Below are positions 16,641 to 63,371 of a DNA stretch of 64,000 nucleotides, one piece after another. Source of the DNA: Gordius sp. MW1 (Eukaryota; Nematomorpha; Gordioida; Gordea; Gordiidae); the NCBI GenBank assembly GCA_964036665.1, contig OZ038532.1, forward strand, positions 21,169,037 to 21,233,036. The letters are read 5' to 3'. A program made the translations under genes and the position numbers. The first letter of the stretch is position 1; each line of letters begins with the position of its first letter. The notes beneath the pieces were generated by a model that made no database searches, was not told the origin of the DNA, and was given only the letters and a program-made list of their open reading frames with translations.

Positions 16641-18858
16641 CATTAGCTTTATTGAGCTTAGAACATGACTTTATAGTTGTTGTTCCCAGGATGATATTAT
16701 AAAATCATTTGCAACATCGAGTAAAAGGCGTAACGAACTGTTATTATCTAAAGACCAATTTTAATATTTAATAAAGAAATAGTCGTTTTGAACTTTTTAA
16801 CATTTTCAAAATATGTATAAATATTATTATATTCACGAAAATTCCATCCTGGATTTAATTTATTTGTCCATCTCACATATGCTTATTGTTTAACATCTCT
16901 TGCATACTGTTTCGATCTCGTCTCGTCTCGGTCTCGAAAACAAAATCTCGTCTCGTCTCGGTCTCTCGATCTCGTCTCGTCTCAACTTTTAAAAAAAATT
17001 ATATACGGAATAAAAATTTCTCCTGTTTTATTAAAAATATTAAATAAGTGTTAAAAACTCCAAATGGCAAACTTTTATAATTTTTTAAAAACTTAATACA
17101 CAAACTTTTTAAATATTTAGCGGTACACGACTCTCATTAACAATATAAAGATATGAATTAATTCATAAAAATAAAATTTTCTATGGAATGTGCAGACTAA
17201 AAAATCTATAAATAAATTTGAACTATAGAAAATTAAATTTTATTGCTATAGCAAATTATAACATTTGTATCAATTCACTGTGCCTGTCAACTATAAATAG
17301 GCTTAGAAAATTATAAGTTCGCATATAGTTGACTTAGTTGCATAACTGAGCAAATTGAGACACTTTTTTAACCCTGGCTAAAGCTTCAAAGTCGACCTTA
17401 ACATATTTAAGGCAAATTTTTAAGTCCATTTATGTTCCATTATAAATTATAGCCCATAGTGTTTATTGCATGTTTACTATAGCTTTATAAACCACAAATT
17501 GCGATTGACTTTTAATAATAATATTTTATTTACAGAATTGATTACTAGTTGCACATATTAAACCGTTGTAACAACAACAATAAAGAGTGCATTAATATAG
17601 GATTAAGAACATTGGGTTTTAAAACTTTAAATTAAACTGCACGTATTTTAAGTTATGACAAAAATCATTATAATCAACTTCCAATTCTGCCTAACTTTGC
17701 CATTAAATAATTATATATCGAATACAGTATAGGTTCATGTAATTATTTTATATTGCACAATTATAGAGATAATAGTAAATTTGAATGCACCTACCAACCC
17801 AAATTATATTGTGAAAAGTAATGCATATGACAAAACTATGTATTTACACAATGTCTTATTAAGGTTCAAAAATTTGGGAGGGATACTATTAGTTAAAGCG
17901 TATAAACTTCTAGAAAACTCATAATTTAAGTTTTAATCAATTATGGTGTCATTAAATACTCTATTGTACTTGAAATCGTTAGGCGGGTGCTCAAAAATCT
18001 CCAGCCACCTTAGCTTAACTTGTATAATTATTAAACTGATTGACCACCAATTCATAATTACCGCCGCATGTAGGATGAGTAACTGCGAAATTTAAATATG
18101 CTTTAGTAATATTTATTATTCCATCCGAACTCATTTAAAGCTTAAAATTTTGTAATATTTAATAATGCTATAGATACAAATATGTGATAAATATATTATA
18201 AAATTTTCACATACCCTATGGGTCAACCATACTTAGGTAAATGATTGCCAAATTTTAAATGTTTTGCAAAATATAATATTTACAACACCTAGGAATTTTT
18301 TTAATATCAAATATATTCCAACATATTGATTTACACATAATACTTTAAATGTAAATCATCCTAATTAAAATACACAATCATTTACTAAAATATAACAATC
18401 AATAAAAACCAGAGCCTTCGGCCCTGGTGGGAAGGGATGGGGAGAGGGAGGTGCAGGAGGGAAGGGGGAACCAAATTTATGGGCGAGAAAGGTGGGAAGG
18501 GGCGAGAATGCCTATAGGGGGTTATAAATGCAAAATAATTAGTTAATTATTTATGCAAATATATAAAAAGTCAAATTTTAGGAAAACTTGCTACAAAACA
18601 CTTGTTAATACTTTATTTATTGAGGAATAGGTTTTCTTTCATTCATTCTTAATTATCAACTTCTAAATTAATCAAAATGACGAAAGGAACGCAAAAAGAG
18701 GGTATGACCTTGGAAAAGCCAATCCTTCCAAAACGTACAACTTTCAATTTAGAGGTTTTTTGATACTGTATAAATTTAAACAATTTGGTGTAGGCGACCC
18801 ATAATTTGAATTATGACTATAGACTCTATTCAAATCATGCGCGTATGTATAGCATAAA

Positions 18859-19316
18859 CATAGACTAGATAGACTGCTTATCAACGCACAAAATGTGTAC
18901 CCTTTTTCCGCCATCTTGAAAGGCACATTGTAAAGTGGTGATCAGATAGAAATTCGTTATTTTCGCAAATTAAATAATCTTAAAAAGGTAAATAAAAATT
19001 TTTTGAATTGGGTAGATATCAAAAACAGCATTTCAAAATAAATATCATTTTAAAAAAAACATAAAAATTAAAAATGTAAAAAATGCGATTAAATTTTGTT
19101 TAATAATATAGCGCCATCAATTTTAATTGCTATTTTGTATAATATTAATTTATTTACGTTCGTTTAAATTATAAACTAGTGAGGAAGGTAAATTGACTGT
19201 TGTTAGGCAAAATTACATGGTTAAAATACACCGATTACCCTCTTCAAAATGGACGAAAATTTGACACACAATTAGCCATATGCAACGTATGGCATGAGCA
19301 GTCTATCTAGTCTATG
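18859..19316. mobile_element. P-like MITE, 20-bp perfect inverted ends
   Basis: Perfect ends CATAGACTAGATAGACTGCT on both strands, flanked by AGCATAAA and AGTATAAA (7 of 8). The subterminal sequence (CAAAATGTGTACC, TTTCCGCCATCTTG) matches the inside right end of the longer element at 57360-58795, which carries a THAP-type exon. No coding capacity; probably mobilised by such an element. Confidence 0.75.
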
Positions 19317-19365
19317 AGTATAAACAAGATATTAAAAAAACGAAAAAAATTTCAAACCAGACCTT

Positions 19366-19850
19366 GGCCATTGGTCATTTTTTCCATCACTCCAGTGGTC
19401 ATATTTTCTAATGGTTAGCAGACAGCCAAATAACTAGCCTATAATTATCATCTAGAAAAAAAACGATTATAATCTCACTTTGGAGTGGTCATTTTTTCCA
19501 TTGGTCAGTAATTAGCAGACTGCCAAATACTGGCCAATAATTATAAGCTAGAGAAAAAATTTGATCTTAATCCCACTTTGGCCGGTGGTCATTTTTTTTA
19601 TTGGTCAGTAGCTAGCAAACGGCCAAATAGCCTATATTTAAAATATAGAAAAAAAATTTGCTACATTTGGCCAATGGTCATTTTTTTAATTGGTCAGTAG
19701 CCAGGACACGGTCAAAGAAATATAAATACACAAGAGACGAAAAAAACGAAAAAAATCGATTCGCAATTTGGCCAATGGTCATTTTATTTATTGGTCAGCA
19801 GCCAGCGGACGGCCAAAAAGTCATATTATTAATGTATTAACAAGAACAAT
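19366..19850 (-). repeat. Hairpin-unit array in E1 (about five units)
   Basis: Units of about 95-110 bp containing GGCCAATGGTCATTTTT then ATTGGTCAG: two short arms (CCAATGG / CCATTGG type) round a T-rich loop. They are followed by AGCCAGCGGACGGCC or AGCCAGGACACGG. Five units, the first two degenerate. Same unit as in E2, E3 and E4. Confidence 0.75.
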
Positions 19851-20078
19851 ATATAAATTTTATTAAAAAAATTTTTTTGCCCTCTCCGAGTATCGAACCA
19901 GCAATTAAGATATATGTTGGACGGACAACGGACAACGGATGGACTGACAACAAGAAGCGAGCCCATAAATTGCATAGCAATTAAAAGTCGAGATCTCACC
20001 AAAAAAATCCCGTATCGTCTCGTCCCGACATCAAAATTCTCGTCTCGATCTCGGGTTTTCCGCGTCACTACTCTTGCA

Positions 20079-21389
20079 TATTTTTATGTAGCACTGCCAA
20101 TAATTTTCGAAAAATGGCTTATACACCATTTTTCCCCTTCGTTAGTGGTACCTCATCATAAGTTTGAGCAGAACATATTGCTTTTAAAAATTCCTGAATT
20201 TATTAACATTTTAAATGCATCAAACTTTCACAACATAATGAACACAAACAATAAGTTGTTCTGTGCAACTCACATCTATAATTTCTTGACACATATATTT
20301 AAGGACCATTTTATCCCTTTAAATCTTTGGTGGTTAAAGGGGGGTTTGTGAAAATAAATCTATAATATCATCAGGGACAATAACTATTAAATACTCATTC
20401 TCGCATTTGTTAAATTTCACAATTAAGTTTTTTTAAATATATTATGTCATAATTTTGCCTTTTGACGATTTAAACTATAAGGCATTATGTTGTCATTATT
20501 TCTATAAATGCGGCCTGAAAATGCTGCCATAGTTTATGTAAAATTAAGATTCGTTATATATATGGCCAAGGTTTTTTGGAAGTTGCGGCAATACAAGATT
20601 TTTAAAAAATTTTGTTGTGTAGTTATTTAATATTTGTATCATTATTTTTAATATTAAAGTTTTTGTCAATAGCCCGGTTCTACTTTGGGCTCTTACAATT
20701 CATTTGTACACAAACTTACTATACCTTGTGAAATTTGTTATATTATCAAGATATAATCGTTTTAAACACATTCCTGTTTTATTAATTAATAATTCTTTTA
20801 TTTTATGCCCTATAAACATATGAGGGAACTAGACAAAGACTTAATTAGTTAAAACTCTGACCGACTGTATTTACAAAGTTGTTGGAGAAAAAATTTTCAT
20901 TGCGTTTCACCCTTTCTTAACTGTGTAAAATCAAAGCTCGACCCTCAAAGGCAAAAAGGATAGCTAAGCCACTGTATAAAACGTTTTAAAGACTTGTAAT
21001 TTCTTATGTAAACCTATACCTTTCGAATTGCATTTTATGGTTATTTCATTCATTCTAATTTCAACCTAAATTCGTTGGTTTTTGTGTTTATATTTAAAAT
21101 TCATATTTATAATTCACCCTACACTTAACCTCACTAAGTATTTATTCCAATTTTCCCATAATTTTTCAAAAGGTTTTCTTATTTCCCCGTTTCAAATGGA
21201 AAATTTCCCCATTGCTTCGGGGAAAAAATGACATCTTTACACACACCAGATGAGGCCTTTAACTAATTATCAATAACCCAACGAATTTTATTTAATAATT
21301 AATGTAAGAGTTAGTTTGAGGTAATATAAACATTAATTGTCATTGAATAAATTTTGTATGGAAAGAAACAAATTAGATAAAACATTTAG
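20079..21389. repeat. Duplicated 3' spacer of hyaluronidase locus 2
   Basis: Matches 48176-49458 along most of its length (ACATATTTAAGGACCATTTTATCCC, ATCATCAGGGACAATAACT, AGCCCGGTTCTACTTTGGGC, CCTATAAACATAT.AGGGAACT). It includes a worn hAT end (GGATAGCTAAGCCACTG, about 20950-20977). No gene seen; the small frames here are not conserved between the copies. Confidence 0.65.
21287..21292 (-). promoter_or_regulatory. Candidate poly(A) signal of locus 2
   Basis: AATAAA on the minus strand, about 100 bases after the hyaluronidase stop. The word is kept at the same place behind locus 3 (49356-49361) and is lost behind the truncated remnant. In AT-rich DNA such a word arises easily, so this is a weak call. 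Confidence 0.35.
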
Positions 21390-21598
21390 TTAAGGAGGTG
21401 CTATAGTAGAATTGCAATTGTCGTTAAACCATCCAGGGTAACACATGCATGTGTACAAGTCAAAGCTAACTTCTGCTCTGGTTAACGAATAAATTCCTTT
21501 GTAGTACGGTTTTAGAATTTTAGGTGGCAATATGTCTCTATCTTTAAACTCAATACGTATACACCTTCCTTTACTACTACACACCATTTGGCTGCATT
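21390..21598 (-). CDS. Hyaluronidase locus 2, exon G (EGF-like C-terminus)
   Basis: Begins after TTAG: ECSQMVCSSKGRC, IRIEFKDRDILPPKIL, then FDLYTCMCYPGWFNDNC and a short tail ending APP-stop. Six cysteines in EGF-like spacing follow the catalytic barrel, as in vertebrate and several arthropod hyaluronidases. 209 bases, the same length as in locus 3. Confidence 0.9.
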
Positions 21599-24500
21599 CT
21601 AACACATATTTTTAATATTTTATTTATTTAGATTATTTCTGCCTAGATTAAAAAATATCTTTTAAAACCTAAACCAAATTAGTCAAATTACCAACAGCGA
21701 AATATTAAAAGTTATTTAAGCTATGATCATTTGATGCAAACCATAGACGAAAAGAAATTTGTATAATCTTAACTATATATAAATTTGGTATATTACTTGC
21801 CCATAACCCTAAACTAGAGAGTGACTTAATGACCTTCAAAAAAGCATTCTCTGCAAAATTAAATTTATCTTCATTGATTTGCTGCATAACGAGTAGCAAA
21901 TTGTTAACAGGTTTATACGGGCTTTATTACTATCTTTTTGTAATCTTGTATTAAATTTGTTGAGGATTAGCGATTTTGACATAAGATGTACCAAATTCTA
22001 AGAAATACAATAAAACAGTCTAGAACAGCGATTTCGACATAGAAATGGAATGGATTGCAGTAAAACATATGCAATTCTTTACAATTTTGGTATCAATTAT
22101 TTATAAACCCAAATTGATAAGTTAATTCATTCCACATAATTAGGAGGGGTTAATTCCAACACAACTATTTTATTCCACATAACTCAACTAGGATAAATCA
22201 AATCCATTCCACTTAACTCCATTCGCTACTACTCCACTCGTTCTCCCCTACTCTTCTCTCCATTCCATTGGTGTTTTATTATGTCACATCGCGTATTCTG
22301 ATCCCATGTCTTCATCGCGTTGCAATCTTCGTCTAAATCGCAACTCCAACATTTATACCTTTTATGCTTTTGAATTTTAATATATTATATATAATTCAAA
22401 ATTCTCTAAATTGGTACCCCGCATTTTGGGGAGCCGTTTTTTCATCCTTTTTTCAGAACTTCTGTAATACCACTGTCATCTTAGTGTAAATAATTTAACT
22501 CGGATTTTTGGGCACTAAATTGTCAAATCCTTATTCCATACGACATTGGAAAAGACATGACCGAGCTGCAACAATCCACCACTTCACCCTCTCAAATCAC
22601 ATCGAGCAATACGTGCTCAAATTATGGAAGCGAAACAAGCTGCCTACATCCCTGTTGTCACTACGATGACAACCTCGACGCCCTACTACATCTACCATAA
22701 TCAACAAATGCAACTTCAACCGACTATTCATATTGTCTATTGCTCCACATGGCTAAATCACAAAAAAAGTTCAACTCATTCACAACATCATCAACACTTA
22801 CATGGTCTTTTGTTATGAGCAAAGACTTAAGCAATCTCGGCAAGACAATGCATGACACAGATCAAACAACATTTCATGAGATGTTGATAAAGCAGATGAC
22901 CTAACAAGCTCACCACTGATGACCGGCCTAGCTGATGGCCGATTATTAATCCAATTTAGATGCGTCAGAATGTTGCGTGTATCTAATTAACGCACTGGAT
23001 AGCTTATTATAAGCCCCAAACAACATTCACTCGGCCACAAGAACTAAAACCACGGAATGCAACAAACTAATTGGCTAGTAGAGCGATTTCATTTCACTGA
23101 CACCTCCCTGCCAGCGTACAGCAATAGATCTTCATAACTAAGCAAACAAACAACCTTCTCAACTATGAAGTAAATCCCAATCGACTACTTGCCGCTTGTC
23201 ACCAAGTTTGAATGTCTGTTATATTTAAAAACGCATCCCAAACATTTCAGCAATCTAAAGATGAAGCTTTAAGAGGATTAGATTTTGCATTCGTTTATAT
23301 AAACAGAAATAATCATAAACACGTCAGAAAAAAAACACGAGGATATGAGAACCGTTCTTCAGTGTTGGTAGGAATATGATCTTAGAATCAACCCTTCAAA
23401 AGTGCGAATTTGGAGTTTGCCAACTCAAATTCTCAGACATCGGGGATCAAAAACTGCTCCACAATTGGACAAGGCCAACGCTATCCTTGAATCGACTGTT
23501 GGATTTAATAAAGAAGCCTCGTAGATTCCTGGGAATGATAAACCTTTATTGCAAATTTTTCCACGAATAGCTCGGAACTTTTAACGACGATCAGGTTGTG
23601 CATTTAATACAAAACCAGACCAATATTCTCCACGAGAGACGCTGATATTACAATTCACCACTGATATACATAAAAGGTGAAAGCAATATAGTTGCAGGCG
23701 CGTTTTCTCGTGTAGAGGTAGAGGACAAACTCACATAATGCGAAATAAACTCCCTTGTGTGGAATAACCCAAAGAAACGCTACCAACGCACTTAGATAAC
23801 GATCCGCGGCGGAAGACTAGTGCATTGGCTTGAGAGACTGATTAACACCATTATTATTATGTTCAATTGAAACCATAGAAATCTCCATATTCGATTGTTT
23901 CATATTCAACAATATGGCGTGGGAGTTTTGTAACGGATAATAAGAAACATGGTGAAATAATTGAACATTTTAGAACCGAGACCGACATAGAAATGTAATG
24001 GATCGCATGAAACATGTGAAATTCTTAACGATTTTGGCATATTCTATGCTTATTTAACCCAACAAAACTCAACTAATTTATGGATTTATTAAATGCCACC
24101 TCACTTAACTGGAATCAACTCCATCTCATTTAATTCCGTTCTATACTACTCAACTTTATCTCATATACTCATCACTCCACTCCACTCGTGCTCTATATCA
24201 CATCGCACATTCCGATCCCATGTCTCATATCGCGTTGCATTCCTCGTTTTAAATTGCAACAGTGCCATTTATTTGCCTTTCATAAATTATATATAATTAG
24301 AGATCTTTTATCATAGACTGTTTACAAATAATGTGTTCAGCTGCTATCTTTTACAAAAATGATTTAAGTATAATTCTTTTATCGAGCCAATGCTTGATCT
24401 TAAATTTGCAGATATTTTTTTAGTCTGCAATTAAATACTGTATATTGTTGCACATTTGAAGTTAGTGAACATCTTTTGGAACCACTATAGAGGGTGGTAA

Positions 24501-27500: not shown

Positions 27501-30500
27501 AGTCGCAGCTCGAGGGGTCGCCTTTTGGGAATTTTCCTGTTCTACGCTACTTCCATATATTTAGTCCCTAAATAGGTCCCGCAATATATCCTAAATTTTC
27601 GTCGCGCTAGCATTACCTGTACATACTTACCTTTACACACTATGTACATTAATCGCTATTTACTCATGATACTTGGCATCATTATTTATTTTATCGCTCG
27701 TTTGTTTACATTTATATTGGTATTCGATAAATAAACGCTGTGGGGGACAGCAGCCTGAACCCACCTGGGTACAGCAGCTTAACTGCTGTACTCAGATAAT
27801 AATAAGAAAGGAAATTACTATAAAAAGGGTAATAAAATCCATTATAAATTTAAGATAATTTAAGTAAAAATCTATGAAATCTTTATCTTAAACTTATAAA
27901 TTAATCGGTCAGTGGTGACGCATTTATTGTGGGGTTTGCAAAAATAAGTATAATTCTTGCTTGCCCGGTGAGTTAAGTTTTGATTATACTTGCTATGTAT
28001 ATGAGTTAATAATCCACTATTCATAACTACAAAGTATCAAGCTTCCAAAGTTATGCCCGATAGTACAATAAAATCTTTTGCATGCCTCTAATCAAATTAA
28101 GACATAAGTAATTTTTAAATTATGAAAAAAAGGCATTTAAATAAGGACCACAATGGTGTAATGATCCTAGTGTATAGCAAACAACAACACATCGATTTTG
28201 TCACTTTCTCTTAAGTCGCTATCTCTCTCCATAATCTAATGTTTCATGATCAATAGTCATTTTCACGCTTAAAGCACATTAACGTATTATCATGCATATT
28301 CACTGCAAACAAATTTGTTACAGAAAAAACTACACATAATAATAACGTGGCCTTATGCGCCTTTTGGCGTAAGAAGGGGCTCAACTTTAGATTGCACTTA
28401 CTAAGCTCTTGGGGGTCTTCGGGACAAAAATACATACACATCACTTTAAATTAAGTTAAAATACAAAAAAATTGAATAGTTGATGTTAAAATCTCGCATC
28501 TTAAGCAATTTGTATATATTTTTTAAATGTAAGTTATTTAAAAACAAATTTAGGAGATAGCCGCGCTTAAATTAGTTATAATTTATTTGTTTTTAATATG
28601 TGATGAAAAGATGAGATTTATAAATTTAACGAGCTTACTACACCATCTTGTGCCATATCAACAGCCAAACCAATCGCATTTTTAAGATCCGGCATCTCTA
28701 GAAAAACTGTTTCTTGGTCGTAAACGTATCTCGCATAATTATATATTGGCACTTCACCGTTTCTCCTCAATCTTGATATTCGTAAAGCTTCATTCATAAC
28801 TAGAATAAGAATTTTACTTTTACGATTACTTTTTCAAAGCTGACCTTAATTATATGACAAAGGATTAATAAATTATTGGAGATTTCTTTTAGTGATAAGG
28901 AGTAGTGTTGAAGCCCACCAATTTTCGCTTAAAAGATTCTTTTAGCTCTATTATAACAATTATCACCAAGATGAGGTGACAAAATAAAATTTTAGATTTG
29001 TAACAATTTTATGACACCCTAACCCACCAATTTTCGTTAAAAGAATTTATTTAATTCTAAAAATGACAATGACAATTGTCACCGAGATAAGGTGAGAAAT
29101 TATTTATTTCTAAAATTATATTTAACAGCTAGATATCAATATTAAAAATCACCCTCAACTATCATTATAATCAAAATAGTACAATTAAAAAGCTTCCTGT
29201 ATTTATATTGCTTATTTTCAAAATCACCAAATTATATACTATTTTTCCTCCAGTCCATACCCCAAAACACCTAAGCCAAACCAAAGGTTGACTGATAAAC
29301 CAGTTGAAAAACCTTTGGCATATTTTATTAACAAAATACACTAACAATATTTGGTCTGTTTTTCAAATGAATAAGCCTAAAGGTCGACAAAGTAGACCAA
29401 AAACCTTTGGTCTGTTTTGGTTTAATCTACTATAACTAAAGGTAGGACTAAAAGTCAGCTAAAACAACCCAGGTCGTTTTACATCACTAATATGAAGTAT
29501 TTGCGAATGTATTTTATAAACATTGGCGCGTGCCTTAGTAAGTAACGCTGCGTTGATTGCTATGCAATTTATGGGCTCGTTTTTGGTTGTCCTTCCGTCA
29601 TGTCCTGGCCAACTTGTAATTTTTTTTAAATTCTTGTGAAAACTTATACGGGTTTTAAATGGCTGTGGATTTATGCTTTTGTAAAACACTTTTATTTTGC
29701 TTTATAGACTAGCTAATGACCGCTGATTGGCCTAAATTTTTCAACCTCGCCCGAGCTCAACTTTCATATCTATTTTTGGGTCTGACTTTTATAAATTAAT
29801 AAATTTTTTTAGCACATTGTCTAGGATGTTGCTTTATAGAGGATAATTGCTATCTGGCTCAAAAATCCCCTGAAATTTATTATGACTGTTGCTTACTTTA
29901 ACTATGTCTGACCCCGACCAGAGACCAATCCTTGTTATGCTGATTATTCTTTATTTTTGCTGCTTATTTTCGTTTATAAATTTCTTGTGTCAACTTGTCT
30001 AGGCTGTTGCTTTATACAAATAAATGCGAAACTGGCTAAATAATTCTCTGCAAATTAATGACGACCGTTGCTTACTTCTACTTTATCTGAACCCGGCCAA
30101 AATCTATTTTTGGGTTTTTGGGATCTATGATATCTTAGCTTCAAGTATATATTTTCCCTTTTACTATATAAATCCTTTAGGCTGTAATTAAATGATGACC
30201 GTTCTGCGGCCAAAGATCGACAATTTTTTGCTCATTTTTGTTGGTGCAAGCGGCTAACTTAAGGCCAAAAAAGTATATATTTCTCTAAACACCTGCTTAG
30301 AATTTGACTTTTCAGGGCTTTACCCTGTATCCCTATTTGTCCTCCTTGCACCCCCCCCCCCCCCATTATGAACCCTTGGCCTTTAACCCTCTCAGAACGC
30401 GCCCTGATGTCACTCATCTCCCCCCTTCCCTCACACTTACACTAGAGTCAACGCAACAGCACCTAAATGCAATATCATCGTTACCGACTTCCTTTTTTAT

Positions 30501-33500
30501 TTATATTTGTTTTATTTTTGCTCTACATTTTCGTCGATCTTCTTTTCTGGCTCGTCTTTTATTTTATTTTTATAAAAGAAATATCAAAAACCATTAAGTG
30601 TAATAAATATTTAGAAATGGTAAGAGTGAGAGGGTGATCTAGTTTGGATAAAAAAAGAAACGACTGCAGGTTGGTATAAAAAAGTTTAGGGAATGAAATG
30701 GCGAACACTCCTATAATGTTAATACCACCAAAGGATTTTGAAGGAAACAAGCTGATTCGTTATGAATAGATATATAAAACTCGGGCCTTCGGCCCTCGTG
30801 GGAAGGGGAGTAGGGGAAGGGGAGTAGGGGAAGGGAAGGGGGGGGGGCGACTCATCTATACTCCGTATAAACGTAGCATATTTGCTATGCAATTTATGGG
30901 CGAGAAAGGTAGGAAGGGGCGAGAATGCCTATAGGGGGGTATTAAATGCAAAATAATTAGTTATAGACCCTTGTAGGGGAGGGCATAGGGTAATTATCAA
31001 TGTTAACCAATTCAAAAATGAAAAAAAATTTCGATTTTGGCCAATGGTCATTTTTTCCATTGGTCAGTAGCCTGCGGACGATCAAAAAGTCATATTATCA
31101 ATGATATTAACAAGAACAAAATATTAATTTAATTTAAAAAAAAATAAAAATTTGCCCTCTCCTGAGCTTAAACCCGGGACATCCAGGTCACCCTGTTTAC
31201 AAGCCGTGCGCTATAACTCGTCACACCATGCTGCTATTTAAATAGTAGAAGTTATTATGATATTTATATAGATAATAAAATAATAAAGTTCTGTTTTATG
31301 TTTAGAAAATCAATATATTTCATCGGTCAGTAGCCAGCGGACGGTCAAAAAGTCAAATTATCAATGGTATTAACAAGAACATAATATTAATTTAATTTTA
31401 AAGAAAAAAAACTAAAATAAAAATTTCTTTTAGTTTTAAAAAAGAGCTGAATTCTGAAACTACCCACCCGATTCGCTCGAAACTTTACCTGTAGGTGCCC
31501 AGGGCGGCCAGGGATAAAATAGCCTTTACAGATTCCTAAAATACCTTTTAGTTTTAAAAATATCGGACATTTCCCGGCCACACGTGCGGTGTAATATCTA
31601 TAACACGTAGAAAATTTTACTAATTATATAAACTTACGCGCGCCATCTAATAAAGTACAATTCGTGTTTTTATAGTTTAATAGTAGATTGAATTTAATTA
31701 GAAAGAACGGGCTATGATTATACCTTTGAAGGAGGTTTCGAATTTTGTGTTAGTTTCTATCAATATATTGTATCGTAAATTAGAATCTAATACCTATATT
31801 TTTTTAACTATTGCTTTTTAGGTTTTCTATGAAATCACAATCTAATTAAATGAAATATATTAACTCAATAAAAAAATATATATGCATTTATAAGGTTAAA
31901 AATATATATTACATAGTTGGCTGTCTGTTAGACCATCTATAATAAATTTTTAGGTTATGTATAAAATTTGGCCAATGGTCATTTTTTTTCATTGGTCAGT
32001 ACCAACAGATACTCTATAAGTCAATGATAGCCAAAAAAAACGGAAAAAAATTTTTGATGCTCACTTTGGCCAATGGTCATTTTTTTCCATTGGTCAGCAG
32101 CCAGCGGACGGCCAAAAAGTCATATTATCAATGGTATTAACAGGAACAATCATAAGAGTCAAAAAAAACGGAAAATAAATTTCGATTCACAATTTGGCCA
32201 ATGGTCATTTTTTTCCTATGGTCAGCAGCCAGGACACGGTAAAAGTGGATATAAATTCATAAGAGTCAAAAAAAACGAAAAAAAAATTTTCGAATCACAT
32301 TTTTGCCAATGGTCATTTTTTTCCAATGGTCAGCAGCCAGGACACGGTAAAAGTGGATACAAATTCATAATAGTCAAAAAAAACTAAAAAAAAAATTTCG
32401 AATCACATTTTGGCCAATGGTCATTTTTTTCCATTGGTCAGCAGCCAGGACACGGTAAAAGTGGATATAAATTCATAATAGTAAAAAAAACGAAAAATTT
32501 TTCGAATCACAGTTTGGCCAATGGTCATTTTTTTCCATTGGTCAGCAGCCAACGGACGGCCAAAAAGTCACAATAGCAATGGTAGTAACAGGAACAATCA
32601 TAATAGTCAAAAAAAACGAAAAAAAAATTTCGATTTATACTTTGGCCAATGGTCATTTTTTCCATTGGTCAGTAGCCAGCGGACGGCCAAAGGTCACATT
32701 ATCAATGGTATTAACAAGAACAATATATTAATTTAATTTAAAAAATAAATAAAAATTTTGCCCTCTCCGGGATTCGAACCCACATTAGTATAGGCATAGG
32801 GTTTGGTAAGGGGCACAGGGACCCATACCAGTAAAGGCATAGGCTTTGGTAAGGGGCACAGGGACCCATATCAGTAGAGGCGTAGGCCCTTGTAGGAAAG
32901 GGCATAGGGTAATTATCAATGTTAACCTATTCAAAGACGAAAAAATACCATAAATTGCATATAGCAATTAAAAATTTCGCTTTATTTGGCCAATGGTCAT
33001 TTTTTTCATTGGTCAGTAGTCAGCGGATGGTCAAAAATTCATATTATCAATGGTATTAACAAGAACAAAATATTAATTTAATTTAAAAAAATTAAAAAAA
33101 AATTCGTCCTCTCCCTGGCTTGAACCCGGGATATCCAGGTCACAAAGCTGGCGCCAATAACTTGGAGGACGACGGACGGACGACGGACGACGGACAACCA
33201 AAAACGAGCCCATAAATTGCATAGCAATTAATATGTCTGGATCATACCAACGACAGATATTTTTAACGTACCGAATATGCGACCGGAATTTGAATTGCTG
33301 AAGCTACCACATTTTTTTTATTTTACGTATGTTAATCTATAAACCCCTATGCCCAACTTGTAAGCGACGAATATGTCTTGATAAACACGATTGTTTCTGG
33401 ATTCATGGCCCTGTGTCTTCAAGATGCCCTTCTTCTGGCAAATTACCTCCACCCTGCTTACCAATTCCACCCCTGGCTTCTAACTTTGAAGAGGCTCCCC

Positions 33501-42423: not shown

Positions 42424-43026
42424 ATTAAATAGTTTGTTAAACCCCAATAATATTCCGTATACTGTAACATTTTTATTATACTTTTAATATCTAATTCGTG
42501 ACTTCAGCCTTGTATGTATTACGTCATTATTGTATATGATGCTATAAATGAAACTGGCCGGGAAATGTCCGATATTTTTAAAACGAAATATTTTAGGAAT
42601 CTGCAAAACTATTTTACCCCTGGCAGCCCTGGGAACCTACGGGTAAAGTTTCGAGCGAATTGGGCCGGTAGTTTCAGAATTTAGCCCTTTTTTAAAACTA
42701 AAAGGAATTTTAGGATTCTGCAAAAGCTATTAATTTAAATTTTATTTATTTAATTTAAATAGTTTGTTAAAACCCAATAATTTTGACCGTATACTGTAAC
42801 ATTTTTATTATACTTTTAAATATCTAATTCGAGAAAACTTCAGCCTTGTATGTATGACGTCATTATTGTATATGCTGCTATAAATGAAACTGGCCCCAAA
42901 TGTCCGATATTTTTAAAACGAAAAGGTACTTTAGGAATCCGAAAAAGCTATTTTACCCCTGGCCTCCCTGGGCATCTACGGCTAAAGCTTCGCGCGAATC
43001 CGGCCGGTAGTTTCAGAATTTAGCCC

Positions 43027-43027
<1 letters not shown>
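42424..43027 (+). repeat. Two tandem ~320-bp repeats
   Basis: Unit 1 (about 42424-42720) and unit 2 (about 42746-43027) both run AGTTTGTTAAA.CCCAATAAT, CGTATACTGTAACATTTTT, TTCAGCCTTGTATGTAT, AAACTGGCC, ATGTCCGATATTTTTAAAAC, TTTTACCCCTGGC and GTAGTTTCAGAATTTAGCCC. Unit 2 leads directly into the ACAT microsatellite. An inverted copy of the unit's end is at 31387-31610. Confidence 0.8.
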
Positions 43028-43028
<1 letters not shown>

Positions 43029-43057
<29 letters not shown>

Positions 43058-43935
43058 CATACATACATACATACATACATACATACATACATACATACAT
43101 ACATACATACATACATACATACATACATACATACATACATACATACATACATACATACATACATACATACATACATACATACATACATACATACATACAT
43201 ACATACATACATACATACATACATACATACATACATACATACATACATACATACATACATACATACATACATACATACATACATACATACATACATACAT
43301 ACATACATACATACATACATACATACATACATACATACATACATACATACATACATACATACATACATACATACATACATACATACATACATACATACAT
43401 ACATACATACATACATACATACATACATACATACATACATACATACATACATACATACATACATACATACATACATACATACATACATACATACATACAT
43501 ACATACATACATACATACATACATACATACATACATACATACATACATACATACATACATACATACATACATACATACATACATACATACATACATACAT
43601 ACATACATACATACATACATACATACATACATACATACATACATACATACATACATACATACATACATACATACATACATACATACATACATACATACAT
43701 ACATACATACATACATACATACATACATACATACATACATACATACATACATACATACATACATACATACATACATACATACATACATACATACATACAT
43801 ACATACATACATACATACATACATACATACATACATACATACATACATACATACATACATACATACATACATACATACATACATACATACATACATACAT
43901 ACATACATACATACATACATACATACATACATACA

Positions 43936-43969
<34 letters not shown>

Positions 43970-43979
43970 CATACATACA
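43029..43979. repeat. (ACAT)n microsatellite, about 950 bp
   Basis: Roughly 237 tetranucleotide copies with a single visible interruption near 43965 (ATATATAC). Followed by CTTTACTTTATATATATAGAT. Three overlapping minus-strand frames of over 300 codons of Met-Tyr-Val-Cys repeats are a mere consequence of the repeat. Confidence 0.98.
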
Positions 43980-52600: not shown

Positions 52601-55385
52601 ATCTTATTATACAAACGAAACTACTAAACGGTGGAAAGATTTTTCTAATAACCTAATTTCTCCTCATTAATCAAGTTTTCCTTCTTATACCTTCCCATAG
52701 ATCTTCTAGTATAGTAATTTTTAGAAACTTATTGCGTATTATTATCTAAACGTTGGAGTTTCGAATAAGGTCTCCCCACCTTAATATAAATTTGATTACG
52801 CATCATTCGGCTTAAGAAGGGGCTCAGACTTAGATTCCACCTGCTAAGATGAGCCTATTTGTTGCAGACATACATATACACATATATATTCTGCTGTACA
52901 AGGCAGATAAATTGAATATAAGCAACCCACCCTGTCGTGATCTAATTGTTTGTTATAAAATAAAATTTATTATTAAAAAAATCCAACAAATTACATTTTG
53001 CTTCCAATAATATCCGGCCAACCTATTTAATCATTGTGATTACATATAGAAATCAAAGGAAAGAACTACTATAAAACGGGTAATATAATCCATTATAAAT
53101 TTAAGATATTTTAAGTGAAAATCCATACAATCTTTATTTTGAACTTATAAATTAATCGGCCAGTGGTGACGCAATAATTGTAAGGTTTACTAAAATAAGT
53201 AAAATCCTTGCTTGCTCGAGTTAAGTTTGGATTAAACTTGCTATGGATATGAGAAAAAATTCTAGACTATTTATAACTCTAAATACAAAATATAAAGCTT
53301 CCAAAATTAAGCCCGACACAACCTCAAAATCTTTTGAATACCTCTAATCAAATTAAGGCATAAGTAATATTCAAATAAAAGGAAAAAAGGCATTTGAATT
53401 CATAAAGGACCACAATGGTGTAAAGATCCTAGTTTATAGCATCGATTTTGTTAATTCCTCATTAAGTTCTCTTTAATCTAATGTTTCATGATTAATGGTC
53501 ATTATCACAAGCCTTAAATACATTAACGTATGATCATGCATATACACACTGCATAAACACCCTTTAATAATAACGTGGCCTTATGCACCACTTGGCGTAA
53601 ATAGGAACTCAACCTTGGATTGTACTTACTAGAGAACTGCACGGCCCGGCCCAGCCACGGGCCGGGCTTGGACGGGCTTCTGCTTCAAAATAAAACAACG
53701 GGCCGGGACTGGGCAGGCCGTTATATACTTAAGGCCCGTTAAAAGCCCGTTACAAAATCAATTAGATTTAGTATAAAAGAAGGTGTTTTTATAATGTTCT
53801 AATTAATTGTTTATAATATTTTATGTATATTAAATTAACAAGGATAGTTACATTTTATTTCCATCTTAGTTCGTTAATTTAGCAATATCTCAACCAGCAT
53901 TATAAATGTTAAAATTATTTATACACGGGCATGAACGTAGCCAATTTAAGATGGGGGTAGTTTAGGTAGGCAAAAAATATTTTTTAGATCAAAAATTTCT
54001 GCCCATCCTTGCCTTCCCATTTATACCCTCTAGCAATATTGAGTGAATTATTTTAATATTATGTAAGATTATTAATTGCTATGCAATTTATGACCTCGCT
54101 TTTGGTTGTCCGTCCGTCCGTTATCCGGCCGTCCGTCCTGTCCAACTTGTAATTCTTCAATAATTGCCGTAGAAACTTATATGGGTTTTTTAATGGCTGT
54201 GGACTTAGGCTTCTATAGAAGACTTTTATTTTGCTCTCGCAAAAACACTAGCTAATGACCACTGATTGGCTTTCCTTTTTTCGACCTCGCCCGAGCCCAA
54301 ATTTCATTATTGTTTTTAAGTCCGATTGATTATTACCTATATTAATGATTTTCTTTGGGCAACTTGTCTAGGTTGTTGCTATATATCATAATTGCTAAAC
54401 TGGCTAAATAATTCCCTCCAAATTAATGATAACCTTTGCTTTTCATATATATATTCACTAACAAATTTAAAAACAAATTTGAAAATTTATTTCTTCAAAT
54501 TACTTTTGTAAAATATCATTGTTTTTTTATTTTGTTAATAACCTAAAAATTTAAAATGGTGGAAAAGCAAAGAAGCCATGTAACTTTATTAAAAACATAT
54601 CCCGAAGTAACACTTGTAATAGAATTTTTTTTCATGTAGGTCGCCTCTAAAAGATAGAAGATCTCGTCTGATCGGGAATTAATAATTTATTATTTTTACA
54701 ATATTTTTATTAACATATTTAACATATACATATTGTTTGCCATGTCGGTAAAAAAATTAAACAAAAAATAAAAATAGTTTACGGGCCCGGGCCGGGCCTT
54801 GTATAAAATTAGCGGGCCGGACTCGGGCTTATAATTTAATATTTTGAAGGGCCCGGGCCGGGCGGGCTTTTAAATTTTTATTACGGGCGGGCCGACTGAC
54901 CTAAACAGGCCCGTTGCAATTCTCTAGTACTTACTAAGCACTTGGGCGTATTCGGGGCAAAAATACATATACATTACTTTAAAATTAAATTAAATAATAC
55001 AAAAAAATTAAATAGTGGATGTTAAATTCGAGCATCTTACGCAATTTATATATAAACAATGTTTATATGTAAGTAATTTAAAATAATTGTTTGGAGATAA
55101 CGGCGCTTAAATTCTCTATAACTTGTTTTTAATTACCTTCTAGCCTTAAAAACATAAAAATGTACTGGAGAATGAAAGGTTAATATGTTATGAAAGATAA
55201 AATTTACAAATTTAACGAGCTTACTACACCATCTTGTGCCATATCAACAGCCTGTCCAATCGCATTTTTAAGATCCGGCATCTCCAGAAAAATATTTTCT
55301 CTGTCGTAAACGTACCTCGCATAATTATAAATTGGCACTTCACCGTTTCGCCTCAATCTTGAAATTCGTAAAGCTTCATTCATAA
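49459..55385 (-). CDS. GH56 hyaluronidase, locus 3 (3' part only)
   Basis: Exons E (55225-55385), F (52241-52346) and G (49459-49667) have the same lengths and junction phases as in locus 2, without stops. They encode the barrel strand MNEALRISRLRRNG..PIYN, the IFWGAYDDIGDCKDL segment with the conserved Trp, and the EGF-like C-terminus. Exons A-D are not found in 55386-64000 and presumably lie beyond the window. The gene appears intact in what is visible. Confidence 0.86.
50620..51420 (+). pseudogene. Ty3/gypsy pol relic in locus 3 intron F-G
   Basis: Paralogue of the relic at 22540-23850: shared TCTCAAATTTACATCGAGC-type start, GGCAAGGTCAACGCCATCG, GATAAACTTTTATCGCAG and ACCAATATTCTCCACGAGA. 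More broken than the locus 2 copy. Inherited through the gene duplication. Confidence 0.65.
52241..52346 (-). CDS. Hyaluronidase locus 3, exon F
   Basis: IFWGAYDDIGDCKDLAFYIE and MLGPMAQQMINFAN. Acceptor and donor match locus 2 (AG|ATA, AACG|GTATGT). Conservative substitutions relative to locus 2 (E to D, Q to K, S to F). Confidence 0.87.
53630..54926. mobile_element. hAT element, GGCCCGG family, with perfect 8-bp duplication
   Basis: Ends TAGAGAACTGCACGGCCCGG and, reversed, TAGAGAATTGCAACGGGCC, flanked by GTACTTAC (53622-53629, 54927-54934). The locus 2 intron at 28391-28405 keeps the empty site (GATTGCACTTACTAAG). It contains a nested HINE-like piece (54076-54470) and a MITE fragment near 53930. 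No transposase. Confidence 0.88.
54076..54470 (+). repeat. HINE-like 5' part nested in a hAT
   Basis: AATTGCTATGCAATTTATGA, then GTCCGTCCGTCC and the body ACTTATATGGGTTTTTTAAT and AGCTAATGACCACTGATTGG, as at 29546 and 56185. The 3' end is not recognisable. Confidence 0.55.
55225..55385 (-). CDS. Hyaluronidase locus 3, exon E
   Basis: MNEALRISRLRRNGEVPIYN, then ARYVYDRENIFLEMPDLKNA and AVDMAQDGV. 161 bases, phase 1 in and 0 out, as in locus 2. Confidence 0.86.
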
Positions 55386-56775: not shown

Positions 56776-56837
56776 CCGTGATTCCTTAAACTTCCTTCCC
56801 TTTACCCCTCTTTGCCTCCCTTGCTCCCCCCTGTATA

Positions 56838-57000
56838 AGAAACCTGCACGGGTCCGTGGGTCGGGTCGAGTTCGGGTTAAAAAAAATTTAATTCCTTCGG
56901 GTCGGGTTTGAATTAAAATTTTTAAAATGTCTACGGGTCGGGTTTGGTTGAAAGGCTTTTGGGTTGGATCCGGGTCGGGTTTAAGGTTATGAGTTGTACA
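56838..57000. repeat. GGGTCGGGT-rich repeat fragment
   Basis: AAGAAACCTGCACGGGTCCG followed by GGGTCGGGTTTGAA and related words. Resembles the GC-rich ends of hAT-type elements such as that at 53630. The minus-strand frame over it is a by-product of the repeats. Confidence 0.45.
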
Positions 57001-57173
57001 TTTCATAATAGACATATCTTTTAAATTAGCCATTATATATCGAATATTATATAATCAATATTCAAATGTATGATTAATTTAACTTATTCCGTTTATATTA
57101 TTTCCTTGTAATTTAAATATCATTTTTGGATTTGCGCAATAAACTTAACAAAGATAAATATCTTGATTGGTAA

Positions 57174-57340: not shown

Positions 57341-57683
57341 ATTGATGATATATTATGATCATAGACTACATAGACCATATACTAATAATAACATATAGAC
57401 TGCCGAACAGCTGTTTCTCTCATTAAAATCACGAAGTCATCTAAGAAAGTAGACATAGGGGGAAATTCTTAAAATTAAGGTATAATTTATATATCCTAAA
57501 ATATATGCTAAATTTCATCTAAAATGAAATTTTTAATCTTTTTTTTTAAATAAATTAATAACATAAATTAATTTTTAAAATTATTTTTGTATACATTACC
57601 TTTTATTTGAGATATTCAAGTTTTAAAATCTGTTTTTGACATGTTTACTTTTCTTCGTGATATTTCAAAGTGCTATTTGGAAA

Positions 57684-57928: not shown

Positions 57929-57929
57929 G

Positions 57930-58120
57930 TAATTATTAAATCTGAATTGGATTAAACTAGATCAGTCTCTTGATCAAGGTAATACTGAGCCATCCCAAAA
58001 TTATTGAAAGTAATTATTAAATCTGAATTTGATTAAACTAGAACAGTCTCTAGATCAAGGAAATACTGAGCCATCCCAAAATTTATTGAAAGTAATTATT
58101 AAATCTGAATTAAATTGAAC
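57930..58120. repeat. Tandem repeat, ~81-bp unit, 2.4 copies
   Basis: GTAATTATTAAATCTGAATT, AACTAGA.CAGTCTCT.GATC and ATACTGAGCCATCCCAAAAT recur at 57929, 58010 and 58092. It directly follows the THAP exon donor; each unit begins with the donor-like GTAATTATT. Confidence 0.8.
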
Positions 58121-58935
58121 TAACAGATGTAACAAATGTAGATACATTATCATATTTTTTTCTTCCTGTTATTTTATAAACTGTATATTATCGTTATAAT
58201 ATAAAAAATTCATAAATTTCTAGATGGAAGACCTGTTATAAAATCAAATAAAAAAATTGGAATCTTAGGGATGTTAATTGATATGCAAGCAATTCAATTG
58301 CTTGCATCTGATCTCTTGGTCCGGACCAAACCCCCTCTAAAATAAATATCTTTATTTCAATCATTTAAAAAAACTTAGGTGTCTATTGGCATAAACTTTC
58401 CCAAGACCACCTTGAAAGTTTTTTGGGTTACTCAGGGCCCGAGGTTATAACAATAACAATCCTGGCTACGCAATTGCGTCAAGCATTAAACAAAAATTTT
58501 TTAACTAAAATATATTACCCCTTCTGCGAAGTTCCCCCAGGATTCAACATCTATTGCTGATGCAAGTTTTATCGAGCCTAATGATGATTTATATGAACTA
58601 GAAGACATAAATTAGGCCGAAATAAAGATCAATTTCCCCTTATATTTCATGTATTTCTTCATATATCGGTGGATACATTGTGATGCAAATGATTTTGCGC
58701 AACTTTTTTAAGAGGATATTGAGGTTGTGTTCATCAAAATGGCGGAAAAATACACACACATTTTATACCGTGATGAGCGGTCTATGTAGTTTATGATTAT
58801 GATAGACATTCGCACTTACACAAGCATCGACGCAACTAACTGCACAATTATCGTTAAGGCTCATATCAGTTGGTAATTAAAAGCCGAACAATTAGAGAGA
58901 TTTTATTGTAGCTTACCGGCTTTTTAGATTTTTTT

Positions 58936-61073
58936 AATTGCTATGCAATTTATGGGCTCGCTTTATGTTGTCCTCCCTTGTCCGTCCCTTGTCCGTGCGT
59001 CCACCAAGTTATTTTCCCCTGCTTTCTAACTTGCAGGTTCGAGTTCAAGCCCAGGAGAGGACAAAACTTTTTTTTTTAATTCAATTAATATTTTGTTTTT
59101 GTTAATACCATAAATAATATGACTTTTTGACCGTCCGCTGGCTCCTGACCAATGAAAAAAATGATCATTGGCCAAATAAATCGAATTTTTTTTCCGTTTT
59201 TGAATTGGTATATTAGGTTAACATTGATAAATACCCTATGCCCTTCCGTAGAAGGGCCTATGCCTCTACTGATATGGGTCCCTGTGCCCCTACAAAAGCC
59301 TATGCCTCTACTGATGTGGGTTCGAATCCCATCGAGGGCAAATTCTTAATTGCTGGTTCGAATCCCAGAGAGGGCAAAATTTTTATTTATTTTTTAAATT
59401 AATTATTATATTGTTCTTGTTAATACCATTGATAATATGACTTTTTGGCCTTCCGCTGGCTACTGACTAATGAAAAAAATGACCATTGGCCAAATTGTAA
59501 TTCGAAATTTTTTTTCGTTTTATTTCAAATTAATATATTGTTTTTGTTAATACCATTGATAATATGGCTTTTTGGCCGTCCGGACCATTGGAAAAAAATT
59601 ACCATTGGCCAAAGTGTGAATCGGATTTTATTTCGTTTTTTTTGACTCGTATGTATTTATAAACCGTCTCTTGGTACTGACCAATGAAAAAAATGACCAT
59701 TGGCCAAATTGTGATTCGAAATTTTATTTTTCGTTCTTATGTATTTATATCCTTTTTGACCGTGTCCTGGCTACTGACCAATAGAAAAAATCATTATTGG
59801 CCAAATTGTGATTCGGAATTTTTTTTTTCTTGTTTTTTTGACTCGTACGTATTTATAGACCGTCTCTGTTACTGACCAATGGAAAAAAATAACCATTTGC
59901 CAAATTGTGATTTGAAATTTTTTTTCGTCTTATCCTTTTTGACCGTGTCCTGGCTACTGTATAATTTAGTATTTTAATTGCTATGCAATTTATGGGCTTG
60001 TTTTTTGTTGTCCGTCCGTCCAAGTTATTGGCGCCAGGTTTCTGTTTGAGTTCAATCCCGGGAGAGGACAAGAATTTTTTTTAATTGCTATGCAATTTAT
60101 GGGCTCACTTTCCATTTTCCGATGTCTTGTCACGCTCTTCGGTGTCTCCGAATGTCTTGGTGTCTTGCACCGACATGTCTTGCACCGAATGACGCTGTTT
60201 ACTTTTATTTTAATTGCTATTATTAATTTAACTAGTTTTTGTGTTCGAATCCCGGGTTTTTTTTTACTCTTATGATTGTTCTTGTTACTACCATTGCTAT
60301 TATGACTTTTTGGCCGTCCGCTGGCTCCTGACCGATGGAAAAAAATGACCATTGGCCAAAATGTGAATCGAAATTATTTTTTTTCGTTTTTTTATTACCA
60401 ATAAAAAAATGACCATTGGCCAAACTGTGAAACGAAGTTTTTTTTTTCGTTTTTTTGACTTTTATGTATTTATAGACTGTCCGCTGTCTGCTGACCAATG
60501 CACAAAAATGACCGTTGGCCAAAATGTGGTTGAAAAAGTTAATTTAGCACCTGTAAAATTTTTGAGATATCCTTACAATACCTGTGTTTTTGTAGGTATA
60601 TATTTTTTTAAACGAGATTAATTGGTAATTTATGATAAAATTAAAAACCTCATTTTTAAATTCTGATAATTGCTACTTAGCAATGAAAAAAATGACCATT
60701 AGCCAATTGTGATCGAAATTTTAATTTTCGCTTTTGAATTGGTTAACATCAATAATTACCCTATGCCCTCCCCTACAAGGGCCTATACCTCTACTTATAT
60801 GGTTCCCTGTGCCCCTACAAAAGCCTATGCCTCTATTAATGGGGGTTCGAATCCCGTAGAGTGCAAAATATTTGTATAAATAATTAACTAATCATTTTGC
60901 ATTAATACCCCCCTATAGGCATTCTCGCCCCTTCCCACCTTTCTCGCCCATAAATTGCATAGCAAATATGCTACTTTTATACAGAGTATAGAAAAGTTCG
61001 CCCTTCCCTTCCCCTCTTCCCTTCCCTTCTTCCCTTCCCCCCTTCCCCTTCCCACGAGTGCCGAAGGCCCGAG
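58936..61073 (+). mobile_element. Composite HINE-like element E3
   Basis: Starts AATTGCTATGCAATTTATGG, then GTCCGTCC-type repeats, a tRNA-like block with GGTTCGAGTTCAAGCCC (59036), hairpin units (59147-60520), further box-B words (59326, 59355, 60846), the inverted start CTCGCCCATAAATTGCATAG (60943-60965), and the terminal hairpin GTGCCGAAGGCCCGAG at 61058-61073. Extra start modules at about 59974 and 60082 suggest nested insertions or module gain. Confidence 0.68.
59147..60520 (+). repeat. Hairpin-unit array in E3 (nine units)
   Basis: Units CTGACCAATGAAAAAAATGA and CCATTGGCCAAA near 59147, 59460, 59585, 59674, 59771, 59869, 60326, 60390 and 60490, many spaced about 100 bp. Some arms have mutated on one side only. 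Confidence 0.8.
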
Positions 61074-62153
61074 TTCTTATATTAAGTATGTATAAATTGC
61101 TTTTAATTGCTATACAAGTTATGGGCTCGCTTTTTGTTGTCCGTCCGTCCGTCCACCAAGTTATTTCCACCCGCTTTCTGACTTGCAGGTTCAAGTTTAA
61201 GCCCAGGAGAGGACAATTTTTTTTAAATTAAATTAATATTTTGTTCTTGTGAATACCATTTATAATATGACTTTTTGACCGTCCGCTGGCTCCTGACCAA
61301 TGAAAAAATGACCATTGGCCAAATCAATCGAATTTTTTTTCCGTTTTTGAATTGGTATATTAATTTAACATTGATAATTACCCTATGCCTCTACTGACAT
61401 TGGTCCCTGTGCCTCTACAAAAGCCTATGCCTCTACTGATGTAGGTTCGAATCCCGGCGAGGGTAAATTCTTAATTGCTGGTTGGAATCCCGGAGAGGGC
61501 AAAATTTTTATTTTTTTTAATTAAATTAATATATTGTTCTTGTTAATACCATTGATAATATGACTTTTTGTTTTTGCCTCTACTGATATGGGTCCCTGTG
61601 CCCCTGCAAAAGCCTATGCCTCTACTGATGTGGGTTCGAATCCCGGAGAGGGCAAAATCTTTATTTTTTTAAAATTAAATTAAAATATTGTTCTTGTTAA
61701 TACCCTTGATAATATGGCTTTTTGACCGTCCGCTGGCTACTGACCAATGAAAAAAATCACCATTGGCCAAATAAATTTTTTTTTGTTTCTGTTTTTTTTG
61801 ACTCGTATGTATTTATAGACCGTCTCTTGGTACTGATCATTTGAAAAAAATGACTATTGGCCAAATCGTGATTCGAATTTTTTTTTCGTTTTTATTTTCG
61901 TCTCTATTTTTGCTTGTTTCTATCATTTAAAACATTATGCAACTAGTTATCGACAACAAACAATATATGTTGGAAGTTGTATAGATGATATAGGTTTTAA
62001 GGGCCAGGATTGGATTTAGATAGAGCAATAATGATGAGGGGTAAAATGATATTTTTTCTTATTTTAGCCATGATTATATAAAAATTTTACGATTTTTTTG
62101 GTATTTTTAAAATTTATTTTTATTGCTATGCAATTTATGGGCTCGTTTTTTGT

Positions 62154-62188
62154 TGTCCGTCCGTCCGTCCGTCCGTCCGTCCGTCCGT
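62154..62188. repeat. (GTCC)n microsatellite
   Basis: Nearly nine perfect GTCC units directly after the element start word. Shorter GTCC runs follow the same word at 54107, 60011 and 61138, so it is part of the element design. Confidence 0.9.
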
Positions 62189-62231
62189 TACCCTCCTATC
62201 TATTTGCATTGGGTATATTAGGTTATCGCTT

Positions 62232-62356
62232 TTTTAAATTAATACATGAGAAAGAGGTGCCCCACCCCTCATCTCTATCTCCCTCGCTGTGTTATTTTTT
62301 AAATTAATGCATAAGAGGTGCCCCACCCCTCATCTCTATCTCCCTCGGTGTGTTAT
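62232..62356. repeat. Direct repeat of ~65 bp, two copies
   Basis: TTTTTAAATTAAT.CAT, AAGAGGTGCCCCACCCCTC and ATCTCTATCTCCCTCG.TGTG occur twice in succession, differing by a short deletion. Inside E4. Confidence 0.8.
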
Positions 62357-62381
62357 ATATAAGATTTGTTAAATTATCTAT

Positions 62382-62605
62382 TATATAATAAACATAAATA
62401 AAAGTTGTTTACTTTTAATTGCTATGCAATTTAACTAGTTATATAATAAACATAAATAAAAGTTGTTTACTTTTAATTGCTATGCAATTTAACTAGTTTT
62501 TTAGATAAAAGTTGTTTACTTTTAATGCTATGCGATTTAACTAGTTATATAATAAACATAAATAAAAGTTGTTTACTTTTTAATTGCTATGCAATTTAAC
62601 TAGTT
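62382..62605. repeat. ~60-bp tandem repeat carrying the element start word
   Basis: ATATAATAAACATAAATAAA, AGTTGTTTACTTTTAATTGC and TATGCAATTTAACTAGTT repeat about 3.5 times. Each unit contains the palindrome AATTGCTATGCAATT (one unit mutated). A related single unit lies at 60198-60237. Confidence 0.85.
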
Positions 62606-63371
62606 TTGGGGTTAGAATCCCGGAGTTTTTTTTGACTCTTATGATTGTTCTTGTTACTATCATTGATAATAAGAATTTTTGGCCGTCCGCTGGCTGCTGA
62701 CCAATGGAAAAAAATGACCATTGGCCAAAATGTGATTCGAAAATTTTTTTTTCGTTTTTTTACTCTTATGAATTTATATCCACTTTTACCGTGTGCTGGC
62801 TGCTGACCAATGGAAAAAAATGACCATTGGCCAAAGTGAGCATCAAAATTTTTTTTTCAGTTTTTTTATCTATAATTGACTTATAGAGTATCTGTTGGTA
62901 CTGACCAATAGAGAAAAATTGACCATTGGCCAAATTTTTGATTTTTTTAATTAAAAATTGTTCAAATTCAACAAAAAATTTCTCCCAACAATTCTGCAAA
63001 TTCTTAACATTGTGTTGTTTTAGAATATAATGTTTGTTAGACCCATAATCTCTAAAGGCCATAAAAACTAATGTAATACGCAACTAGATGCAAACACTAA
63101 ATCTAACCCTAACCCTTGCCTATATTACATTTTGCCTTTATTACATTTTGCCTATAATGAAAAATTTGTATAAATAATTAATTAATCATTAGTCATTTAA
63201 TACCCCCCTATAGGCATTCTCGCCCCTTCCCACCTTTCTCGCCCATAAATTGCATAGCAAATATGATACATTTATACGAAGTACAGATGAGTCGTCCCCC
63301 CTTCCCTTCCCCTCTTCCCTTCCCCTCTTCCCTTCCCTTCTCCCCCTTCCCACGAGGGCCGAAGGCCCGAG

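Follow-up and report, generated by a model that had tools for sequence, protein, structure and literature searches.

Very probable HINEs, non-coding relatives of Helentrons, form an abundant repeat family in the genome of Gordius sp. MW1

Introduction

A window of 64,000 nucleotides from Gordius sp. MW1 (C6:21169037–21233036 of a 211.8-Mb genome in 12 contigs, referred to here as C1, C2 and so on) contains four related repeats, E1–E4, and raises the question of what kind of element these are and which protein moves them. A coding test found no open reading frame (ORF) of at least 220 amino acids in the window outside a TACA array. E1–E4 are genuine copies of one abundant and oriented repeat family, and we class them as very probable HINEs, i.e. 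non-coding and non-autonomous relatives of the Helentrons (rolling-circle transposons), because both their anatomy and their insertion behaviour fit. The original prediction, made from the letters of the window, had given the same interpretation, and our analysis supports it: all four sets of coordinates were confirmed, to which we add the strands (E1 and E2 minus, E3 and E4 plus), and the structural and insertion features of HINEs that can be read here are present in E2–E4, with the hairpin of E3 mutated. HINEs are a kind of element already described in mites, flies and oysters; the unusual features of this family are a hairpin in terminal position with a C/T-rich tract before it, and repeated B-box-like modules. 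Our searches of the open-access literature gave no account of this HINE family.

Results

Anatomy of the four elements

The elements and their parts are listed below (window positions).

18409–19982, minus strand: E1, HINE-like, divergent subfamily, inverted start word truncated; its target repeat has three paralogous empty copies
18409–18427, minus strand: E1 terminal hairpin, 8-bp stem with GAA loop, followed by T5
30780–33229, minus strand: E2, complete HINE-like element with 108–126 bp central repeats
30882–30900, minus strand: E2 subterminal inverted repeat (subTIR, the inverted start word), 102 bp from the 3' end
30780–30798, minus strand: E2 terminal hairpin
58936–61073, plus strand: E3, complete HINE-like element with two further internal 5' modules at 59976 and 60083
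60947–60965, plus strand: E3 subTIR, 108 bp from the 3' end
61055–61073, plus strand: E3 sequence of the terminal hairpin, with a substitution that disrupts it
61105–63371, plus strand: E4, complete HINE-like element; a further 5' module lies inside it at 62121, and the start word is included in a 58-bp tandem array
63242–63260, plus strand: E4 subTIR, 111 bp from the 3' end
63353–63371, plus strand: E4 terminal hairpin, followed by T7

The family starts TT/AATTGC and finishes GGGCCGAAGGCCCGAG/TT (the slash marks the boundary of the element). A common start word, AATTGCTATGCAATTTATGGGCTCG or a close variant of it, opens all four elements as had been predicted (E4 has AATTGCTATACAAGTT, with two changes) and is followed in each by GTCC-type repeats; as AATTGCTATGCAATT folds into a 6-bp stem, the 5' subTIR is palindromic. 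The inverted start word claimed near the other end is complete in E2, E3 and E4, and just CCCATAAATT of it is kept in E1. It was also found 98 bp from the 3' end in three other copies, and so is present in six of the seven elements examined. A C/T-rich tract precedes the terminal GC hairpin in the sense orientation. The GC-rich end before T is common to all four elements, and the claimed hairpin itself folds in three of them (an 8-bp stem in E1 and 5-bp stems in E2 and E4); in E3 folding is prevented by the substitution. Over the last 60 bp E2–E4 are mutually 87–92% alike, while E1 is 73–75% alike to the others and so counts as a separate subfamily by the 80% rule given in the available text of Thomas et al. 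(PMC4067079). The central repeats of E2 and E3 are ~97–127 bp long, and E4 was inserted 31 bp behind E3.

Inverted start words on both sides and a high copy number would also be expected of cut-and-paste miniature inverted-repeat transposable elements (MITEs) with short inverted ends. We regard this explanation of E1–E4 as extremely unlikely: the inverted copy lies ~100 bp inside the end rather than at the terminus, and there is no constant target duplication at the three loci with empty sites described below.

Abundance and orientation in the genome

Exact matches to a 23-mer 5' word occur 6593 times in the genome (0 for a reversed-pattern control), and the exact 15-mer start word 16974 times (8387 and 8587 on the two strands). 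The reversed 15-mer has no copies, which excludes a chance origin of the start word. Exact 3' hairpins, counted as the 16 exact bases provided that the twelfth base beyond them is not G, number 3415 (1683 and 1732; 0 for the control). The two ends belong together. We compared 48 exact 3' ends from contig 1, those heading the list of 100, with the listed 5' words, leaving out the forty-ninth as it lies near the point at which the word list stops. Of the 48, 32 had a 5' word on the same strand no more than 4 kb upstream and 16 had none; searches on the opposite strand and on the wrong side of the same strand produced 8/48 and 2/48, respectively. The median span from 5' word to 3' end was ~1855 bp; four of the 32 paired ends had more than one upstream word, and a single word may serve two adjacent 3' ends. 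This pairing shows that the family is an oriented unit. Some copies look young, since the best-matching 3' ends are 93–100% alike over ~180 bp.

Two further related 5' ends are found in the window, the first of which was absent from the original prediction.

54074–54139, plus strand: further related 5' end with the start word and GTCC repeats
29553–29599, plus strand: 5' end of a further related copy

Two arrangements outside the window were also noted. At C1:2659505–2659572 a tail-to-tail HINE pair is formed by two exact 3' hairpins that point towards each other across 36 bp, and at ~8697–8769 of stretch L040 (C7 near 1335700) a short relative has the start word and the inverted word ~50 bp apart with a different interior, and is perhaps another subfamily.

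Insertion into T-runs

The dinucleotide TT precedes the start word in 6370 of the 6593 exact 5' words, a set which includes some internal modules. For the 27 of the 100 listed 3' ends that were returned with flanking letters, T followed in 27/27 and TT in 26/27, with a T-run of four the commonest (12/27). Three loci could be compared with paralogous empty sites, and the filled sites carry 4, 2 and ~5 extra bases, mainly T. We therefore conclude that there is no fixed duplication; a duplication of fixed length would have spoken against HINEs.

The first locus is E1, said in the original prediction to sit in a T-run without an obvious target duplication. The T-run is there, and the host repeat, the one previously called a hAT, is found in three copies without E1. 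These empty copies have A5, and E1 is flanked by A5 and A4, so four extra T/A are present and that claim holds in part. The second is a HINE copy behind a Helitron ORF (C1:10883001–10903000), whose filled site shows T4 and T6 against GGGA-T8-ATCG in the empty one; the empty witnesses are three tandem, near-identical Helitron units on C3 and were counted once. The third has its empty counterpart inside the window:

56951–57168, plus strand: paralogous empty site, 77% alike, of the HINE copy at C1:149820–151485, with ~5 bases fewer, mainly T

A search with joined flanks, in which 40 of 813 candidates were scored, listed no empty site for E2 or for E3 and E4 together, and the list was filled by the target repeat of the third insertion. 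Insertion of the family is thus into TT or T-rich targets, with no target change except in the number of Ts. The ends of E1–E4 were not shared with another class of element in the material examined, in which no search was aimed at LINE or cut-and-paste families with these ends.

Internal modules and the tRNA-like parts

The original prediction had also noted tRNA-like modules inside the elements. A motif resembling a B-box or T-arm, GGTTCGANTCC, allowing no more than one mismatch, occurs ten times in the sense strand of E1–E4 and never in the antisense strand (none of the ten is in E1), against an expectation of 0.155 from mononucleotide shuffles; the remaining 55.6 kb of the window have two, counting the two strands together. 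The motifs are therefore sense-only and B-box-like, but no recognised tRNA accompanies them: ARAGORN reported no tRNA in the window, and neither did Rfam at gathering scores. With the threshold relaxed to E = 5 for E2 and to E = 1 for E3 and E4, Rfam still gave no tRNA; E1 was covered at the gathering score only.

The sense-only motifs, together with insertion at T-runs, are what might be expected if E1–E4 were tRNA-derived retroposons resembling short interspersed nuclear elements (SINEs), copied through RNA and inserted by a long interspersed nuclear element (LINE). This is highly improbable given that no tRNA-related head was recognised by ARAGORN or Rfam, and that the elements have a fixed 3' hairpin and no tail, a palindromic 5' start that is fixed across thousands of sites and recurs inverted in a subterminal position, and no duplication of bases other than T. 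A bolder suggestion, to which we give little probability, is that the modules are captured 3' halves of tRNAs still acting as parts of a polymerase III promoter, making the family a rolling-circle/SINE hybrid. If this were true, polymerase III transcription would open the strand or supply an RNA that aids rolling-circle copying, and this would explain the very high copy number.

Positions 1650–1810 of E2 match a different repeat at 42555–43028 of the window. This related stretch flanks a 952-bp TACA array of 238 copies at 43028–43979. Elsewhere in the window, 12864–15742 is a large inverted repeat with arms of 253, 194, 150 and 118 bp that are 93–100% complementary.

Canonical Helitrons in the same genome

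Canonical Helitrons are abundant in this genome, with 714 first-look candidates for the Helitron_like_N profile, of which the 150 that were scored all matched, and we considered whether E1–E4 might be non-autonomous derivatives of one of their families. Ten stretches of 10–30 kb around Helitron_like_N genes were fetched and eleven frames from nine of these were translated. Motif 2 is EWQKRGLPHAH, the canonical Helitron form, in all ten frames which cover it, and the Helitrons fall into several families ~52–75% alike between families. In the family with members on C6, C5a and C2, all three copies end with a GCCAA hairpin and then CAGCTAG/T, beyond which the flanks differ; the canonical 3' end was read in this family alone and not in C1/C3/C5b or C7/C4/C8b, which leaves some room for such a derivation. 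The elements do not look like this family, nor do they have the 5' TC, 3' CTRR and A/T target of canonical Helitrons: E1–E4 start with AATTGC, and before the T that follows E2–E4 end in GAG after the hairpin and E1 in CTGG. HINE ends are absent from seven of the ten stretches, and the HINE-type copies in the stretches from C1, C7 and C4 do not bound the Rep gene. Descent of E1–E4 from a canonical Helitron family is, in our view, very unlikely.

The copy directly behind the Helitron ORF on C1 would favour such a descent, and was considered as a candidate autonomous element. It was rejected as it is a separate insertion for which empty copies exist. We also observed that C3:19105001–19135000 (L043–L045) carries a tandem series of three canonical Helitron genes at distances of 12458 and 12462 bp, the arrangement that rolling-circle concatemers would give.

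A Helentron as the candidate partner

If E1–E4 are HINEs, a Helentron would be expected to supply the protein, and DUF6570 has only 21 matches in the genome, which makes the partner question tractable. The protein encoded in stretch L049 has DUF6570 and Helitron_like_N domains (Pfam) and the Rep signature FKRIEFQHRGSPHAH. This signature shows the features that are diagnostic for Helentron proteins in the available text of Thomas et al. (2014; PMC4067079): motif 2 is preceded by F/Y-x-R, and an S stands between the G and P. The helicase P-loop was recognised by eye, the stretch read ending before the PIF1 domain. The Helentron 5' leader is found in further copies at 97–99%, and leader positions 601–760 are related to the central repeat of the HINEs (E2, E = 4e-12). 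Upstream in the leader there is a start word that lacks 2 nt after the TT. HINE words within two edits occur four times in the 200 kb fetched, all in or at HINE-type elements. Joint searches showed two neighbouring arrangements. A leader copy at C3:2634458 has a HINE 5' end immediately beyond its downstream edge (among 40 of 1094 candidates scored), and a Helentron coding fragment at C8:29702201 has one on the other strand at a distance of 266 bp (among 40 of 217 scored). The most likely source of the protein is a Helentron such as that at C6:2707201–2711900, which we consider to be the candidate partner of the family.

Other Helentron copies lie at C8:4085000–4097000, and a second group of Helentrons ~70% alike is known from positions alone, e.g. 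C3:19382767–19385607. All five pairs of DUF6570 matches less than 40 kb apart are convergent (plus then minus), some near-mirror and 3.9–36 kb apart, as tail-to-tail Helentron pairs (C2:7808798/7827372, C2:14210633/14214553, C8:5354407/5366197, C8:31246341/31257802 and C6:10957368/10993435). Furthermore, 22 listed places away from known Helentron genes carry a piece of the leader, positions 446–629, at 93–96% (e.g. C1:3622449, C2:1550645 and C5:15636222), and may represent a non-autonomous derivative belonging to that Helentron and separate from E1–E4.

Discussion

Several observations weigh against the classification of E1–E4 as HINEs or against the proposed partner. E1 is without most of the subTIR, and the energies of single hairpins are weak compared with shuffled sequences (z from -1.86 to -0.13), and because of this the hairpin argument rests on conservation and not on folding energy. 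The spacing at the 3' end differs from that of HINE-Mo of the mite Metaseiulus occidentalis, as given in the available text of PMC4067079: the subTIR lies 98–111 bp from the 3' end here and 38–60 bp in the mite, and the hairpin is no more than 3 nt from the end here and 8–35 bp in the mite. The original prediction had asked for T/T insertion without duplication, which is borne out in that no fixed duplication was seen at the three loci with empty sites, and for a Rep/helicase partner whose ends match; our searches did not turn up a Rep/helicase element carrying the HINE sequences at its two ends. HINE sequence is common, and a HINE fragment would be met by chance in 4.7 kb with a probability of ~0.07–0.09 (an estimate from 3–4 in 200 kb). 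In narrow joint searches, with 40 of 1799, 1094 and 217 candidates scored, a HINE 3' end was not listed next to any Helentron copy, and in the one with 40 of 1094 scored the Helentron leader had no normal start word on the side upstream of it; as the stretch scored per candidate seems narrow, these negatives are weak evidence.

Taking E1–E4 as HINEs, a mechanism for their movement can be proposed. A Rep/helicase protein made elsewhere would nick at the 5' TT/AATTGC palindrome, one strand would be peeled off while the helicase unwinds the DNA, and copying would stop at the 3' hairpin. The single strand would then be joined into a T-run, leaving what we see at the junctions, Ts in varying number with no other base duplicated; the chemistry of the joining, like the other steps past the junctions, is what we infer. 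From the arrangement of the extra internal 5' modules and central repeats, these may have arisen by nested insertion, end-to-end insertion, replication slippage or filling. The family offers a good case for asking by what route HINEs acquire modules and which Helentron is responsible for their movement; the mover of the oyster HINEs is left open in the available text of PMC7492417.

Comparison with known systems

The mite HINE-Mo elements have palindromic subTIRs of 12–15 bp, a 3' palindrome and no coding capacity (Thomas et al. 2014, PMC4067079; this and the following comparisons follow the available text of the papers cited). Their targets are T-rich with at least two Ts per side, the number of Ts varies among copies, and no other target change was found in what is reported there. 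For the Culex elements, Thomas et al. assign the 2–5 Ts at the boundary to the element itself, with a number that varies (PMC4067079). E1–E4 resemble HINE-Mo in the palindromic subTIR, the 3' palindrome, the T-rich target with a varying number of Ts and in being non-coding, and in addition to the spacing they differ in having a C/T-rich tract between the subTIR and the hairpin (PMC4067079). They are like Drosophila DINE-1 in their subTIRs, 3' stem loop, TT preference and very high copy number, but unlike DINE-1 the subTIRs are palindromic here (PMC4067079).

In the oyster Crassostrea gigas, Cg_HINE elements have satellite-like central repeats, and several have GTCC-type microsatellites in the left flank (PMC7492417). 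Our family shares with them a GTCC/GTCY microsatellite after the 5' subTIR, central repeats, the 3' palindrome and TT insertion, and compared by description only, it differs in the palindromic 5' word, the repeated internal 5' modules and the B-box-like motifs (PMC7492417). Finally, the canonical Helitron family of C6, C5a and C2 in the same genome is like E1–E4 in belonging to the rolling-circle class and in the T after the 3' end, but has CTAG with the hairpin upstream where E1–E4 have a terminal hairpin and GAG/TT.

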